From Verrucomicrobiia bacterium (lineage in GTDB: Bacteria; Verrucomicrobiota; Verrucomicrobiia; Limisphaerales; JAEYXS01): a stretch of DNA of 64,000 nucleotides. The position numbers and the translations under genes are program-made. Under the pieces are notes generated by a model. It was not told where the DNA came from. It made no database searches and worked only from the letters and a program-made list of their open reading frames with translations. Below are positions 13,721 to 55,086 of the stretch, piece after piece (position 1 is the stretch's first letter; each line of letters begins with the position of its first letter). The stretch covers positions 124,001 to 188,000 of the forward strand of contig DASWYF010000013.1 of assembly GCA_036405135.1 (NCBI GenBank), read 5' to 3'.

Positions 13721-14347
13721 ATGCTTGAGACGGATTTAATCCCCGCAGTGGAACGCGATTCCAAGAAACTCCTCGTCGTCCTCCACGGCCTCGGCGACAG
13801 CATGGAAGGCTATCGCTGGCTTCCCGGTGAACTCCGTCTCCCTTGGTTAAACTACCTTCTCGTCAACGCGCCGGATGCCTACTACGGCGGCTACTCCTGG
13901 TATGATTTCACTGGTGAAGAACGCATCGGCGTGGGCAGCAGCTACAAGCTCATCGCCTCCCTCCTCGACTCCATGCGCGCCGCTGGATTCCCCAGCGAAG
14001 ACATGGGGTTCTTCGGCTTCTCCCAAGGCTGCCTCATGACCATCGAGACCGGCTGCCGCTATCCGCACAAACTCGGTCCTCTCGTCGGCATCAGCGGCTA
14101 CGTGAACGACGCCGAACTCCTTGCCAAAGAAATGTCCCTCGTCGCCAAAGAGCAGAACTTCCTGATCACCCACGGCACCTACGATTCTCTTTTGCCAGTC
14201 GCCCGCACCCGTGGTCATCTGCATACCCTGCAAACCGCCGGGGTGAAGATGGACTGGGCCGAGTTCCCGAAAGATCATACTATCCTGCCAGAAGGTGAAC
14301 TTCCGTTCATCCGTGAATTTTTGATCAAAGGATTTGGCAAGGGTTGA
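13721..14347 (+). CDS. Phospholipase/carboxylesterase-type alpha/beta hydrolase
   Basis: 208 residues, cytoplasmic (no signal). The oxyanion strand LLVVLHGLGDSMEG is followed by the nucleophile elbow GFSQG near residue 108, the acid in HGTYDSLLPV and the catalytic His in FPKDHTI. This is the short-chain esterase/acyl-protein-thioesterase-like family. The TGA stop overlaps a possible TTG start of priA (TTGA), so the pair is probably one operon. Confidence 0.85.
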   Translation: MLETDLIPAVERDSKKLLVVLHGLGDSMEGYRWLPGELRLPWLNYLLVNAPDAYYGGYSWYDFTGEERIGVGSSYKLIASLLDSMRAAGFPSEDMGFFGFSQGCLMTIETGCRYPHKLGPLVGISGYVNDAELLAKEMSLVAKEQNFLITHGTYDSLLPVARTRGHLHTLQTAGVKMDWAEFPKDHTILPEGELPFIREFLIKGFGKG

Positions 14348-17300
14348 AGAATTTCATGATCGCCCGGGTCACATTGGAAATCGCCTTGCGGCGCGAGTTT
14401 GACTACCTCGTCCCTTCCGAGATGGAAGGGCAAGTGGAAGTCGGCACGCGCGTAAAGGTCCCCTTTGGCCCGCGCCAAGTCATGGGAGTTGTGACATTGG
14501 TTCTGGATGACTCTCCGCACACGAATCTGCGCGCCATCGCCAAGGTCATAGGCAAGCAATCCCTCGTGACGCCGAAGGTTCTCCAGCTCGCTCGCTGGAT
14601 CGGTGAATACTACTGCTGCGCCCCCGAGATCGCGCTTAAGAGCGTGTTGCCTGAAGCTGTTCGCAAGGAGCAGGAAGGTTGGCGCGAACGCTTAGTGGTG
14701 CGCCTGCTGCAAATCCACGGAGAACCACCAAAACTCTCCAAGCGTCAGCAAGACCTCATCAATGTCATCGAAGAATGGCGTGAAATCCCGTTACAAAAGC
14801 TGGTGGAACTTGCTGGCACTACGCCCGACACCATCCGTCGCCTTGAAGACAAAGGCTTGGTCGTCATCGAAAACCAGATCTCCGAACGCGATCCCTACGA
14901 GCACGAAAACATCCTGCCCACCGACAAGCTGACGCTAAATGCCGAACAGGAGAAAGCATTAGCGGCAATCAATGGGGCATTGGACCAATGTGCTGCCGGA
15001 TTCCAGCCGGCAGTAGGGGCGGGTGGCCGAAGCCAAGCGTTACCCAAGGAAACAGAGGAGGAACTTTTAGTTGGTTCGAAGCTCAAAGGTGGGAATTCAG
15101 TTCAAGAGTCGTGTGCTTCTGCGGACGCCGCGGACTGCCGGCTGGAATCCGGCAGCACGGGGTCGCGTGCTTCGTCGGAGGCTCAAAATGAAGACACTGA
15201 ATCCCTTTTTTTTGATCCCAAGGCGGAGAAAGGGGGGCATCGTGGTGCATTGCCGCACTGGCGGCAGGGAGCAAAACTTTATTTCGTCACCTTTCGTCTG
15301 GAAGATTCAGTGGCGCAGCAGCAATTGCAGGTATGGCAGGAAGAGAAAACGGTTTGGGAATCATTCCACCCCAAACCGTGGAGTGAGAAAACTCAAGCTG
15401 AGTATAGCCGCCGCTTCACGTCTAGAATGGAGGATCTTTTGGACGCAGGTTATGGCTCTTGCGCGTTGGCTGAATCACGCGTTGGAGAGGTGGTGGAAAA
15501 TGCGCTTAAGCACTTTGATGGGGATCGTTACAGCTTAGGTGATTACGTAGTGATGCCGAATCATGTGCATGTGTTATTGCAGCCGGGTGATGGAGTGGAA
15601 CTCAGTGATATTTTATACTCTTGGAAATCTTTTACAGCCAAAGAGATCAACCGAATTTTAAACCGCAAAGGTATGTTTTGGCGGGATGAATCGTTCGATC
15701 ACATCGTCAGGAGCGGAGCACAATGGGCTAAATTTAAACGATATATCCAAGACAACCCAGTCAAGGCACGGCTAAAATCGGGCTTCAAAATTGGCAAAGG
15801 CAATCTGGTAGATATCGGGGATGTTATCCAGTTGACCGAGAATAAAGGAGCCGCGAAGCAAAGTGCTGCCGGATTCCAGCCGGCAGTCGGGACTGGTGGC
15901 CGAAACCAAGCGTTACCCAAAGAAACAGAGGGGGAACTTTTAGTTGGTCCGAAGCCCAAAGGCGGAAAGACAGTCCAAGAGTCACGTGATTCGGCGAACG
16001 TCGCGGACTGCCGGCTGGAATCCGGCAGCACGGGGCTTCCTGCTTCGTCGAACCAAGGACCAACCACTTTCCTCCTGCACGGCGTGACGGGTAGCGGTAA
16101 GACAGAGGTTTATCTTCAAGCCCTTGCCCACACCTTGGAGCAGGGGAAGGGCGCGATCGTTCTCGTTCCGGAAATCTCGCTCACGCCGCAAACGGTCGAG
16201 CGTTTCAAAGCGCGCTTCAGTTCTGGTAAGTGCCAGACACTTGTAGCCGTGTTGCACAGTCATCTCTCCTCCGGTGAGCGTCATGATGAGTGGCATAAGA
16301 TTCGTCAGGGCAGGGCACGTATCGTGATCGGCGCACGCTCCGCCATTTTCGCACCCGTTGATCCACTCGGACTCATCATCGTGGATGAGGAGCACGAGTA
16401 TTCATATAAACAGGAAGAAGCACCGCGTTATCACGCACGCGATGTCGCTGTCTATCGCGGCCAGATGGAAGGTGCCGTTGTCGTGCTAGGTTCCGCCACC
16501 CCTTCGATGGAGAGTTACTACAATGTGAAGCGTGGCAAGTATCAGCTCCTGGAGATGCCCACGCGCGCGGACGATAAGAAGATGCCCATCGTGCGCGTCA
16601 TCGACATGCGCTCCGAAGCGAAGAAGGAGAAGGGGATACCGATCTTTTCGAATCGCTTGAAAGAAGCGATGCATCAGCGGCTCGAGAAAAAAGAGCAAAC
16701 GATTCTTTTCCTCAATCGCCGTGGTTACTCTTCCTCGCTGCAATGTCCGAAGTGCGGTTACGTGGCGCAATGTCCGCATTGCAGCGTTTCACTCACGTAT
16801 CATCGGCGGGCTCAGGAATTGCGCTGTCACATCTGCGGTCACTTTGCACCTGCGCCAGCGCGTTGCCCGAATAATGAGTGCCGTGATCCGGCCATCCGTT
16901 ACGCGGGTCTTGGTACAGAGAAGGTGGAAGAGACGCTCGGTAAACTTTTTCCCAATGCGAGCATCCGTCGCATGGACTCGGATACGTTGAAGCGTAAGGA
17001 AGATTACCGCACCATCCTTGGAGAGTTCCGTCGTGGAAAGATCGATATCCTCGTGGGCACGCAGATGATCGCGAAGGGCCTGCATTTCCCGAATGTCACG
17101 CTCGTGGGCATCATCTACGCGGACCTTGGATTACACCTTGCGGATTTCAGGGCGGGTGAGCGGACGTTCCAATTGCTCACCCAAGTATCAGGTCGCGCTG
17201 GTCGCGGTGATGTGGAGGGCGAAGTCGTGGTGCAAGCCTTCACGCCGTTTCATCCCGCCATCCAATATGCACGCCGCCACGATTACATCGGCTTTTACGA

Positions 17301-17637
17301 ACAGGAGATAGAGTTCCGCGAGCAGTTGAAATACCCGCCGCTGAGCCGCGTGGCCTTGCTGACGATGAAAGGGCGGAATGAGGACAAGGTGCAGTTCTCC
17401 GCCGATCATCTGCGGAAGCAACTGGAGACGAAATTCAAAGGCTGGTCGGATCTCGTCATCGCCGGTCCAGCGCCTGCGCCGTTGGCGCGTGCCGAAACAT
17501 TTTATCGCTACCAGATCATGTTGCGGACGAAGGCCATGAGCAAACTGAGCAAGATGCTCGCGGAAATGTTGGAGAACCAAGAATGGCCGGATGATATTAC
17601 CGTGGCTGTGGATATCGACCCCGTGGACTTGATTTAA
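14344..17637 (+). CDS. priA: Primosomal helicase PriA carrying an in-frame RAYT/REP insertion
   Basis: 1097 residues without a stop, against about 730-750 for normal PriA. PriA reloads the replicative helicase at stalled forks. Residues 1-215 are the DNA-binding N-terminal part, ending in the LTLNAEQEKALAAINGALDQ helix. Residues about 217-569 are foreign (see the mobile element). PriA resumes at TTFLLHGVTGSGKTEVYLQ (Walker A about 580-587), with DEEH near 680, eight paired cysteines at about 801-845 (CPKC, CPHC, CHIC and so on) and helicase motifs V/VI (GTQMIAKGLHFPNV, QVSGRAGRG). Removing the insertion leaves about 743 residues, as expected. Start is TTG 14344 or ATG 14356. Whether the long protein works is unknown; the lack of any stop or frame break in the helicase domain argues that selection still acts. 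Confidence 0.9.
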   Translation: MKNFMIARVTLEIALRREFDYLVPSEMEGQVEVGTRVKVPFGPRQVMGVVTLVLDDSPHTNLRAIAKVIGKQSLVTPKVLQLARWIGEYYCCAPEIALKSVLPEAVRKEQEGWRERLVVRLLQIHGEPPKLSKRQQDLINVIEEWREIPLQKLVELAGTTPDTIRRLEDKGLVVIENQISERDPYEHENILPTDKLTLNAEQEKALAAINGALDQCAAGFQPAVGAGGRSQALPKETEEELLVGSKLKGGNSVQESCASADAADCRLESGSTGSRASSEAQNEDTESLFFDPKAEKGGHRGALPHWRQGAKLYFVTFRLEDSVAQQQLQVWQEEKTVWESFHPKPWSEKTQAEYSRRFTSRMEDLLDAGYGSCALAESRVGEVVENALKHFDGDRYSLGDYVVMPNHVHVLLQPGDGVELSDILYSWKSFTAKEINRILNRKGMFWRDESFDHIVRSGAQWAKFKRYIQDNPVKARLKSGFKIGKGNLVDIGDVIQLTENKGAAKQSAAGFQPAVGTGGRNQALPKETEGELLVGPKPKGGKTVQESRDSANVADCRLESGSTGLPASSNQGPTTFLLHGVTGSGKTEVYLQALAHTLEQGKGAIVLVPEISLTPQTVERFKARFSSGKCQTLVAVLHSHLSSGERHDEWHKIRQGRARIVIGARSAIFAPVDPLGLIIVDEEHEYSYKQEEAPRYHARDVAVYRGQMEGAVVVLGSATPSMESYYNVKRGKYQLLEMPTRADDKKMPIVRVIDMRSEAKKEKGIPIFSNRLKEAMHQRLEKKEQTILFLNRRGYSSSLQCPKCGYVAQCPHCSVSLTYHRRAQELRCHICGHFAPAPARCPNNECRDPAIRYAGLGTEKVEETLGKLFPNASIRRMDSDTLKRKEDYRTILGEFRRGKIDILVGTQMIAKGLHFPNVTLVGIIYADLGLHLADFRAGERTFQLLTQVSGRAGRGDVEGEVVVQAFTPFHPAIQYARRHDYIGFYEQEIEFREQLKYPPLSRVALLTMKGRNEDKVQFSADHLRKQLETKFKGWSDLVIAGPAPAPLARAETFYRYQIMLRTKAMSKLSKMLAEMLENQEWPDDITVAVDIDPVDLI
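14991..15177 (+). repeat. Left REP pair (BIME-like), 187 bases
   Basis: Two inverted palindromes of the same family face each other: ctgccgg-attccag-ccggcag at 14993-15013 and ctgccgg-ctggaat-ccggcag at 15135-15155, i.e. a REP and its reverse complement about 120 bases apart. In the PriA frame the first reads AAGFQPAV and the second DCRLESGST. The segment matches 15864-16050 over its full length without a gap, with roughly two dozen mismatches. Confidence 0.9.
15188..15863 (+). CDS. RAYT (REP-associated tyrosine transposase, Y1 HUH type), nested in priA
   Basis: The transposase domain is read in the PriA frame from about 15230 (ALPHWRQGAKLYFVTFRL) on. The HUH pair is His-Val-His at 15562-15570 within VVMPNHVHVLLQPG, followed by ILYSWKSFTAKEINRIL, GMFWRDESFDHIVR and the catalytic-Tyr motif KRYIQDNPVKARL (Tyr codon 15742-15744). 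Its own start seems to be ATG 15188 with a GGAGG site at 15177-15181, but this ATG is in the +1 frame and joins the transposase frame only by a -1 shift at eight T (15204-15211). No native stop occurs before the right REP. Function: probably single-strand nicking at REP hairpins. The start and expression mode are inferred. Confidence 0.8.
15204..15211 (+). promoter_or_regulatory. T8 run, candidate frameshift or transcriptional slippage site
   Basis: Eight T in a row follow MKTLNP-type codons from ATG 15188. With nine T, or a ribosome slipping back one base, the ATG frame continues into FFFDPKAEKGGHRG and the full RAYT. With eight T as written, the PriA frame passes straight through. A ninth T would instead put a TGA in the PriA frame directly after the run. 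Confidence 0.5.
15864..16050 (+). repeat. Right REP pair (BIME-like), 187 bases
   Basis: Palindromes at 15866-15886 (ctgccgg-attccag-ccggcag) and 16008-16028 (reverse orientation) with the same spacing as the left pair. Mismatches to the left copy fall about evenly on the three codon positions, so the translated peptide seems not to be under selection. PriA coding resumes immediately after. Confidence 0.9.
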
Positions 17638-53381: not shown

Positions 53382-54959
53382 ATGAATTTGCCGACACTCA
53401 TCATCCGTGCCGATGCCAGTGCTCATATGGGCACGGGGCATGTGATGCGGTGTCTGGCGTTGGCGGAGCCGTGGCTGGCGGCGGGGAGTCAGGTCATTCT
53501 CGCAGCGCAGTTGATGCCGGAGGCTTTGGGGCAGCGGGCGTTGCAAGCCGGTGTCCGAGCTTACGGTGTCCGTGGTCAGGCGGGTGGGATTGAAGATGCT
53601 TGGGAAACAGTGGATCTAGCAGAGCGAGATCCTGACTCATGGTTGGTGGTGGATGGGTATCAGTTCGGTGAGGGATATTTCGGCGTCTTGAAGCAAGCGG
53701 GTGTGAAGGTCTTGCAAATAGATGATTTCGGCGGGTTGACGCATTACGAAACAGATTTCGTGCTGAACCAGAATCTCGGAGCAGCGGAGGATTGGTATCC
53801 GCAACGGGAGAAGGCAACACGCTTGCTGCTGGGGACGCGGTATGTGCAATTGCGTGGAGAGTTCCTAAAGCAAAACAAGAGCGTTGGTGCGAATACCAAC
53901 GACTCCAAACGGATCTTGGTCACGTTAGGTGGAAGTGATCCGGATAATGTGACGGCGAAGGTGATTGCTGCATTGCAAACGGTTGCTGGAGTGGAAGCGA
54001 CTGTGGTGGTCGGTGGCAGCAATCCGCATTGGGAAGATTTGCAGAAGAGTGCACAGGGTGGTGATGGACGCATCCGCCTTGTCCGTAATGCGAGCAATAT
54101 GCCGGAGCTGATGGCGCAGACGGATTTGGCGATTGCAGCGGGTGGCACGACGGCATGGGAGTTCGCCTACATGGGTGTGCCGATGATGACGATCGTGCTA
54201 GCGGATAATCAACGGTCCAATGGTGAGCAGTTGGAGGCGGCGGGTGTGTCCTTGAATTTGGGTTGGCATGAGGATTTGACGGCGAAAGGTTTGGCGGAAC
54301 GGATTGTAGCGTTGATAGGGAATGATGCAGAGGTGAGGGACGGGGGCACCCCTCACCCCGGCCCTCTCCCCTCCGATGGGCGAGGGGGGAATAACCCTTG
54401 GCTAGCCGAGATGTCGGCTAAAGCACGCAAGTTGGTGGATGGGCTAGGGTCGATGCGGGTGTGGTTGAGGTTGAATGAAGAGGCGATCCGGTTGCGTGCG
54501 GCTACGGGCAGTGATGCGAAGTTGATCTTTGATTGGGCGAATGATGCGGGTGTGAGGGCAGTGTCGTTTGCTTCCGAGCCCATCGCTTGGGAGAATCACT
54601 TGACGTGGTTTGAGGGGAAGTTGAGTGATGCGAATTATCGCATTTGGGTGGCGGAGGATTCAACGGGTGCGGCGATCGGGCAGGTGCGGTTTCAGATCGA
54701 AGGTGGGACAGCCACGATTTCTATCAGTCTCGATGCGGCACAGCGGGGGAAGAACCGAGGTTCGTTGCTGATCTGGACGGCGTGCAAGAAGCTGTTCGCA
54801 GAGACGGATGTGAAAGAGGTGTTGGCGTATATCAAGCCGGATAATCAGGCGTCTGTGCGGGCGTTTGAGAAGGTGGAGTTTCAGCCGAAAGAGGAGGCGA
54901 CGGTGAAGGGATTGAGGGCGTTGGTGTATTCGGTGACGCGTGAGGGGATGGGGGACTGA
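53382..54959 (+). CDS. pseG: PseG-PseH fusion: UDP-sugar hydrolase plus N-acetyltransferase
   Basis: 525 residues. Residues 1-355 are PseG, a GT-B-fold hydrolase releasing UDP: IIRADASAHMGTGHVMRCLA, VDGYQFGEGYF, ILVTLGGSDPDNVTAKVIAA and AIAAGGTTAWEFAYMGVPMM. Residues about 370-515 are a GNAT domain in the position of PseH: LRAATGSDAKLIFDWANDAG, YRIWVAEDSTGAAIGQVRF, SISLDAAQRGKNRGSLLI and YIKPDNQASVRAFEKVEF. So the acetylation and UDP removal steps sit on one chain. Residues about 322-338 (TPHPGPLPSDGRGGNN) are encoded by an inserted palindromic repeat. Confidence 0.92.
   Translation: MNLPTLIIRADASAHMGTGHVMRCLALAEPWLAAGSQVILAAQLMPEALGQRALQAGVRAYGVRGQAGGIEDAWETVDLAERDPDSWLVVDGYQFGEGYFGVLKQAGVKVLQIDDFGGLTHYETDFVLNQNLGAAEDWYPQREKATRLLLGTRYVQLRGEFLKQNKSVGANTNDSKRILVTLGGSDPDNVTAKVIAALQTVAGVEATVVVGGSNPHWEDLQKSAQGGDGRIRLVRNASNMPELMAQTDLAIAAGGTTAWEFAYMGVPMMTIVLADNQRSNGEQLEAAGVSLNLGWHEDLTAKGLAERIVALIGNDAEVRDGGTPHPGPLPSDGRGGNNPWLAEMSAKARKLVDGLGSMRVWLRLNEEAIRLRAATGSDAKLIFDWANDAGVRAVSFASEPIAWENHLTWFEGKLSDANYRIWVAEDSTGAAIGQVRFQIEGGTATISISLDAAQRGKNRGSLLIWTACKKLFAETDVKEVLAYIKPDNQASVRAFEKVEFQPKEEATVKGLRALVYSVTREGMGD
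54347..54393 (+). repeat. In-frame TPHPGPLP-type palindromic repeat inside pseG-pseH
   Basis: cacccctcaccccggccctc, then tcccctccgatgggcgaggg and gggaata. Stem around ctcccctc/gagggg. I know this string as a common intergenic repeat whose translation TPHPGPLP turns up in many unrelated predicted proteins. Here it adds about 16 residues to a PseG loop between two helices without breaking the frame. Confidence 0.75.
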
Positions 54960-54968
54960 TTGGGGGGG

Positions 54969-55086
54969 CGCGGCTGTGTCGTCAGACCAGCCGCAGCAGA
55001 TGAAACAGAACGGATCAGTCACAAAATATTTTTGCAGCTTACATTTGCTGCGTTTCCGCTGCGGCTGGTCTGACGACACAGCCGCG
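54969..55086. repeat. Perfect 29-base inverted repeat upstream of kdsD
   Basis: The arm 54969-54997 (cgcggctgtgtcgtcagacc on) is the exact reverse complement of 55058-55086, with 60 bases between. It would form a very stable long hairpin in the gap between pseG-pseH and the isomerase gene. No T-run follows. Confidence 0.85.

Follow-up and report, generated by a model that had tools for sequence, protein, structure and literature searches.

A pseG-pseH fusion gene in the 64,000-nt window (i.e., the whole stretch of DNA that was analysed) carries within its pseG part an in-frame copy of a palindromic repeat that is dispersed through the genome, almost always between genes. We consider it very probable that this copy stems from a neutral chance insertion of an intergenic TM/PIT repeat that was filtered by purifying selection. 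A copy of the dispersed palindrome would have happened to land in the pseG portion of the fusion; as the inserted 69 nt would have contained no stop in their frame, translation would have continued and the protein gained a loop of 23 residues; selection would have retained this harmless insertion while purging nearly all other intragenic ones. We infer from the reading frame, the loop position and measures of selection that the insertion was fortuitous and neutral and that the enzyme has kept its activity. The gene is a clean example, measured exactly, of dispersed repeat DNA turned protein sequence.

The repeat occupies positions 54345–54386 of the forward strand, reads GGCAC-CCCTCACCCCGG-CCCTCTCCC-CTCCGAT-GGGCGAGGG according to pattern search and alignment of the genome copies, and encodes GTPHPGPLPSDGRG. 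Its core CCCTCACCCCGGCCCTCTCCC (54350–54370, +) is directly followed by CTCCGATGGGCGAGGG. With up to three mismatches allowed, the core pattern has a single match in the window and 0 in 100 shuffles, and 21/21 core bases of the pseG copy agree with the repeat family of the genome. RNA folding and arm pairing place a hairpin, CCCTCTCCC-CTCCGAT-GGGCGAGGG, at 54362–54386, with a left arm at 54362–54370 (+) and a right arm at 54378–54386 (+) that has one T-C mismatch versus the left; the fold of 54360–54388 reaches −17.7 kcal/mol (z −1.78). TM anatomy combines hairpin arms with a third-strand block (PMC4666352), and all three blocks are found here: CCCTC.CCC and the G-rich arm as a hairpin, plus the third-strand block CCCTCACCCC at 54350–54359 (+), delimited in the sequence after that anatomy. 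Holder et al. 2015 (PMC4666352) described this repeat as TM (also PIT), a G/C-rich intrastrand triplex motif, of which the pseG copy represents type B. The TM_ECO type B/PIT of that study is like the pseG copy in anatomy and has near-identical bases (CCCTCACCCCGG and CCCTCTCCC...GGG(C/A)GAGGG), and E. coli TM no. 18, which reads CCCTCGCCCCTCCGGGGAGAGGGCCGGGGTGAGGGG on the opposite strand, is close to the window repeat (PMC4666352). Places in E. coli that are 85–87% identical to the repeat (blastn) lie at sites without annotated features.

The initial annotation had described a common intergenic repeat, which agrees with the many dispersed copies found, amounting to at least 165 places in the 5.81-Mb genome (up to three mismatches) compared with 0 for a reversed control pattern. 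The consensus of the genome copies spans about 46 bases, CCGGCAC-CCCTCACCCCGG-CCCTCTCCC-CTCCGAGGGGCGAGGG-tG, with flanks that are little conserved in the alignment. A G-rich arm pairs with CCCTCTCCC in 98/104 copies, and the loop is mostly 6 nt long. Across the order, the TM core was detected in 162 of 293 sampled genomes (up to one mismatch), some of which hold more than 200 copies. At two loci of the studied genome (L030 and L091), TM copies are truncated by an identical sequence, TGTATGGACTGGGTACAAGGTGGACAGGTGTGCGG; this may be the terminus of an insertion sequence with the TM repeat as its target.

The host gene is an ORF of 525 codons at 53382–54959 (+), described from the ORF list, profile matches, Foldseek and a codon model. 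Its N-terminal part is identified as PseG by TIGR03590, which covers residues 5–284 at E 4.7e-67 and 226.5 bits, above the cut-off of 153.55, and C. jejuni PseG (3hbm/3hbn) provided the top Foldseek matches for the predicted model. PF13302 (GNAT) covers residues 369–501 of the C-terminal part. TIGR03585 (PseH) covers residues 372–502 with 42.8 bits, below its cut-off of 93.1, and given this score the GNAT domain is termed only ‘PseH-like’. Conserved residues are retained relative to a 40% identical homologue, and the codon model found gene-typical usage on both sides of the insert, with the ORF unbroken throughout. Just downstream of the gene, an inverted repeat at 54969–55086 has 32-nt arms that are 97% complementary and 54 nt apart.

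That the repeat lies in frame inside the PseG part, as had been proposed, was confirmed by the ORF reading through it. The proposed gain of about 16 residues had to be revised, since alignment with 23 PseG homologues (MAFFT) gives exactly 23 residues, 318–340, corresponding to 69 nt at 54333–54401 (+) with borders accurate to a few codons. None of the 23 aligned homologues, drawn from the order and beyond, has residues in the insert columns. These homologues are thus uninterrupted there, as had been stated for PseG relatives, and there is no unrelated insertion of equal length among them. A same-genus orthologue (L031), 73% identical, runs ...ELVMDWQK-LDEMSAKARKLVDG across the insert site. The position between two helices was likewise upheld in an AF2 model, in which residues 314–337 have pLDDT < 50 between helices 301–312 and 339–351; this model has little depth (3 sequences) and modest quality (mean pLDDT 70, pTM 0.42), and the loop position alone was used. 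Most likely, the insert forms a proline/glycine-rich loop that separates the final helices of the PseG part and lies in neither of the conserved domains, PseG and acetyltransferase.

Copies of the repeat are strongly depleted within genes. We classified 104 distinct TM copies, the other 60 or so being more divergent, by reading their contexts in the stretches around the copies. A small codon-model gene caller, by which a fraction of 0.88 of the window is coding, placed 97 copies between genes, one at a gene edge and six inside genes. Two of the calls inside genes were judged false, each as an extension upstream of the true start, at L002 as a locus-edge artefact and at L028 by start-codon choice; one copy in a LuxE-like gene (L004) was missed by the caller and entered by hand. 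Long ORFs over other copies (L003, L025, L026, L027, L050, L064 antisense and others) were dismissed as spurious or as upstream extensions from codon score and reading of the translations. Consequently, 99 of the 104 copies lie outside genes and five inside, namely in pseG, tsaD, a gene for an HrpA-like helicase, the LuxE-like gene and an M56 peptidase gene, compared with about 92 intragenic copies expected at random placement. Intragenic copies are therefore ~18-fold rarer than predicted, and even frame-preserving insertions must mostly be lost. This comparison with chance, which had been put forward as a check, does not support the suggestion that such insertions are generally tolerated; the companion suggestion that in-frame ones are kept holds as survivor bias, all five intragenic copies being in frame. 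Six TM copies are flanked on either side by a called gene at most 60 nt away, and the four copies with close same-strand neighbours showed no broken genes but pairs of distinct genes.

Relative to relatives from the same order, extra residues are found at the repeat in TsaD (+43), the HrpA-like helicase (+44) and the LuxE-like protein (+38), the three proteins for which this comparison was made besides PseG. Three sense and two antisense frames of the repeat consensus are free of stops, and four of these five are in use, yielding the peptides TPHPGPLP, PSPRPSPL, PLTPALSP (twice) and SPSPLGGERAG. No particular peptide is therefore favoured and the peptide looks incidental. A literature search for peptides encoded by the repeat gave nothing. 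The numbers gained are the extent of the depletion, the in-frame state of all survivors and the arbitrary use of frames.

Several related genes carry comparable inserts. Fusions of PseG and PseH in three other genomes, G125 (locus L128), G174 (L126) and G026 (L122), have in common an antisense in-frame TM copy at a linker different from that of the window gene, adjoining and preceding the LLVTLGGSDPDN strand. Among these species the PseG genes differ by a dS of 0.38–0.45 with dN/dS of 0.22–0.27, values indicating that PseG is under purifying selection there. The 15 compared residues of the shared insert are identical between L126 and L128, and the L122 copy of the repeat is degraded, with its frame still open. 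If the insert has one origin, these genes would provide post-insertion evidence that PseG works with an internal repeat. In G027, a genome of another family, the LuxE-like gene (L206) has an in-frame TM copy at the same linker as the copy in our genome; this copy is probably independent, because its orientation is opposite. The LuxE-like gene of our genome (L004 and L205; C2:261439–262638) has an in-frame insert that combines palindromes of two families (AAGFQPAV, SPSPLGGERAG). The same linkers appear to have been struck independently, with luxE hit in two families and PseG hit in different lineages at two sites, and the inserts appear to have been retained for long. TM repeats could thus recurrently supply new linker loops to proteins of the order and form a measurable source of length variation, a generalization that we regard as rather doubtful.

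The initial annotation had treated pseG-pseH as a functional gene, and it looks functional from its dN/dS. Compared with L031, dN/dS is ~0.13 overall, a value that spans time before and after the insertion at high, nearly saturated dS; the codons ahead of the insert give 0.10, the 25 that follow it 0.04 and the GNAT part 0.20. Most likely the fusion enzyme still works despite the insert. Disabling or weakening of pseGH, with a frame open merely because the event was recent, would fit the occurrence of this insert in a single genome and its location towards the end of the PseG part together with an RNA hairpin. However, the intact ORF with gene-typical codon usage on both flanks, the retained conserved residues, the low dN/dS and the predicted loop that houses the insert all argue against it, and we consider such a loss distinctly unlikely. 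Less probable still, and in our view highly unlikely, is that selection brought the repeat into the protein for a function, either as a Pro/Gly-rich peptide or as an mRNA hairpin (serving as a linker, as a translation pause or to regulate the PseG/PseH ratio). Although recurrence of in-frame linker copies in luxE and PseG and the invariance of the compared insert residues between L126 and L128 would be expected from such a role, differing frames and orientations produce unrelated peptides, intragenic copies are strongly depleted, the shared PseG copy is decaying in L122 with the frame still open, and the RNA fold z is only −1.8.

The locally G-rich composition might suggest that the repeat originated fortuitously at this site out of coding sequence. 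Yet a full core match to a family of 165 copies, with 0 expected by shuffling, and 23 residues wholly absent from homologues leave this reading with next to no probability; copy number and exact extra length can be taken to have already refuted it. Chance insertion of an existing copy, which we prefer, may have left a trace at the site: GGGAAT occurs as a direct repeat at 54318–54323 (+) and 54387–54392 (+), at a spacing of exactly 69 nt, and is compatible with target duplication, though suggestive only. At insert lengths, no comparable duplication was seen at the other inserts, with 4-nt matches at tsaD and luxE and 5 nt at hrpA. Linkage of TM to a RAYT, as in RAYT-mobilised REPs, was rejected, as the repeats do not flank the transposase at any of the eight Y1-type transposase (Y1_Tnp) loci of the genome; no TM copy lies in the 3.3 kb examined at these loci.

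Absorption of palindromes in frame is already known for other repeat families, and pseG is a well-supported new case. Rickettsia palindromic elements (RPE) are in-frame palindromes in genes likely encoding functional proteins (PMC3733652), and like them the pseG repeat keeps the frame and is a segment that homologues do not have, although the sequence families differ. GTAG/CGTC REPs are intragenic and in frame in several species, including Opitutus terrae (Verrucomicrobia), with inserts often of 20–30 aa (PMC3733652); they share with TM the encoding of in-frame inserts, whereas TM is found here without a linked RAYT. In Enterobacter sp. 638, 100 copies of CCCTCTCCCXX(X)GGGAGAGGG repeats occur at gene 3′ ends with a presumed terminator role (PMC2869309); these share the TM hairpin core but differ in this placement. 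In E. coli MG1655, 23/23 TM copies are intergenic (PMC4666352), in contrast to the five in-frame intragenic copies here; intergenic location is a trait of the E. coli copies rather than part of the sequence definition of the motif, and the pseG copy does not share it. New in the present case are the motif family, the measured depletion and the repeated strikes on linkers of the same kinds. Applied to further TM-rich genomes from the order, this approach could show how frequently repeats become protein loops.

A further gene of the window, priA, had been paired with pseG as a second frame that absorbed palindromic repeats. This pairing is apt only in a loose sense: the palindromes absorbed in frame by priA belong to a different repeat family and surround a whole Y1-type transposase domain. 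The priA ORF (14344–17637, +; 1097 aa) contains some 350 extra in-frame residues. This segment holds a Y1_Tnp (IS200-like/RAYT) domain at 15478–15756 (PF01797, 28.7 bits vs. a cut-off of 23), flanked on both sides by inverted copies of the palindrome CTGCCGGATTCCAGCCGGCAG. In most of the other listed genomes of the order, the match to PriA extends to residue ~216 and picks up again at ~570, with hardly anything in the interval. A repeat-transposase-repeat unit read through within PriA is more striking than the insert in pseG.
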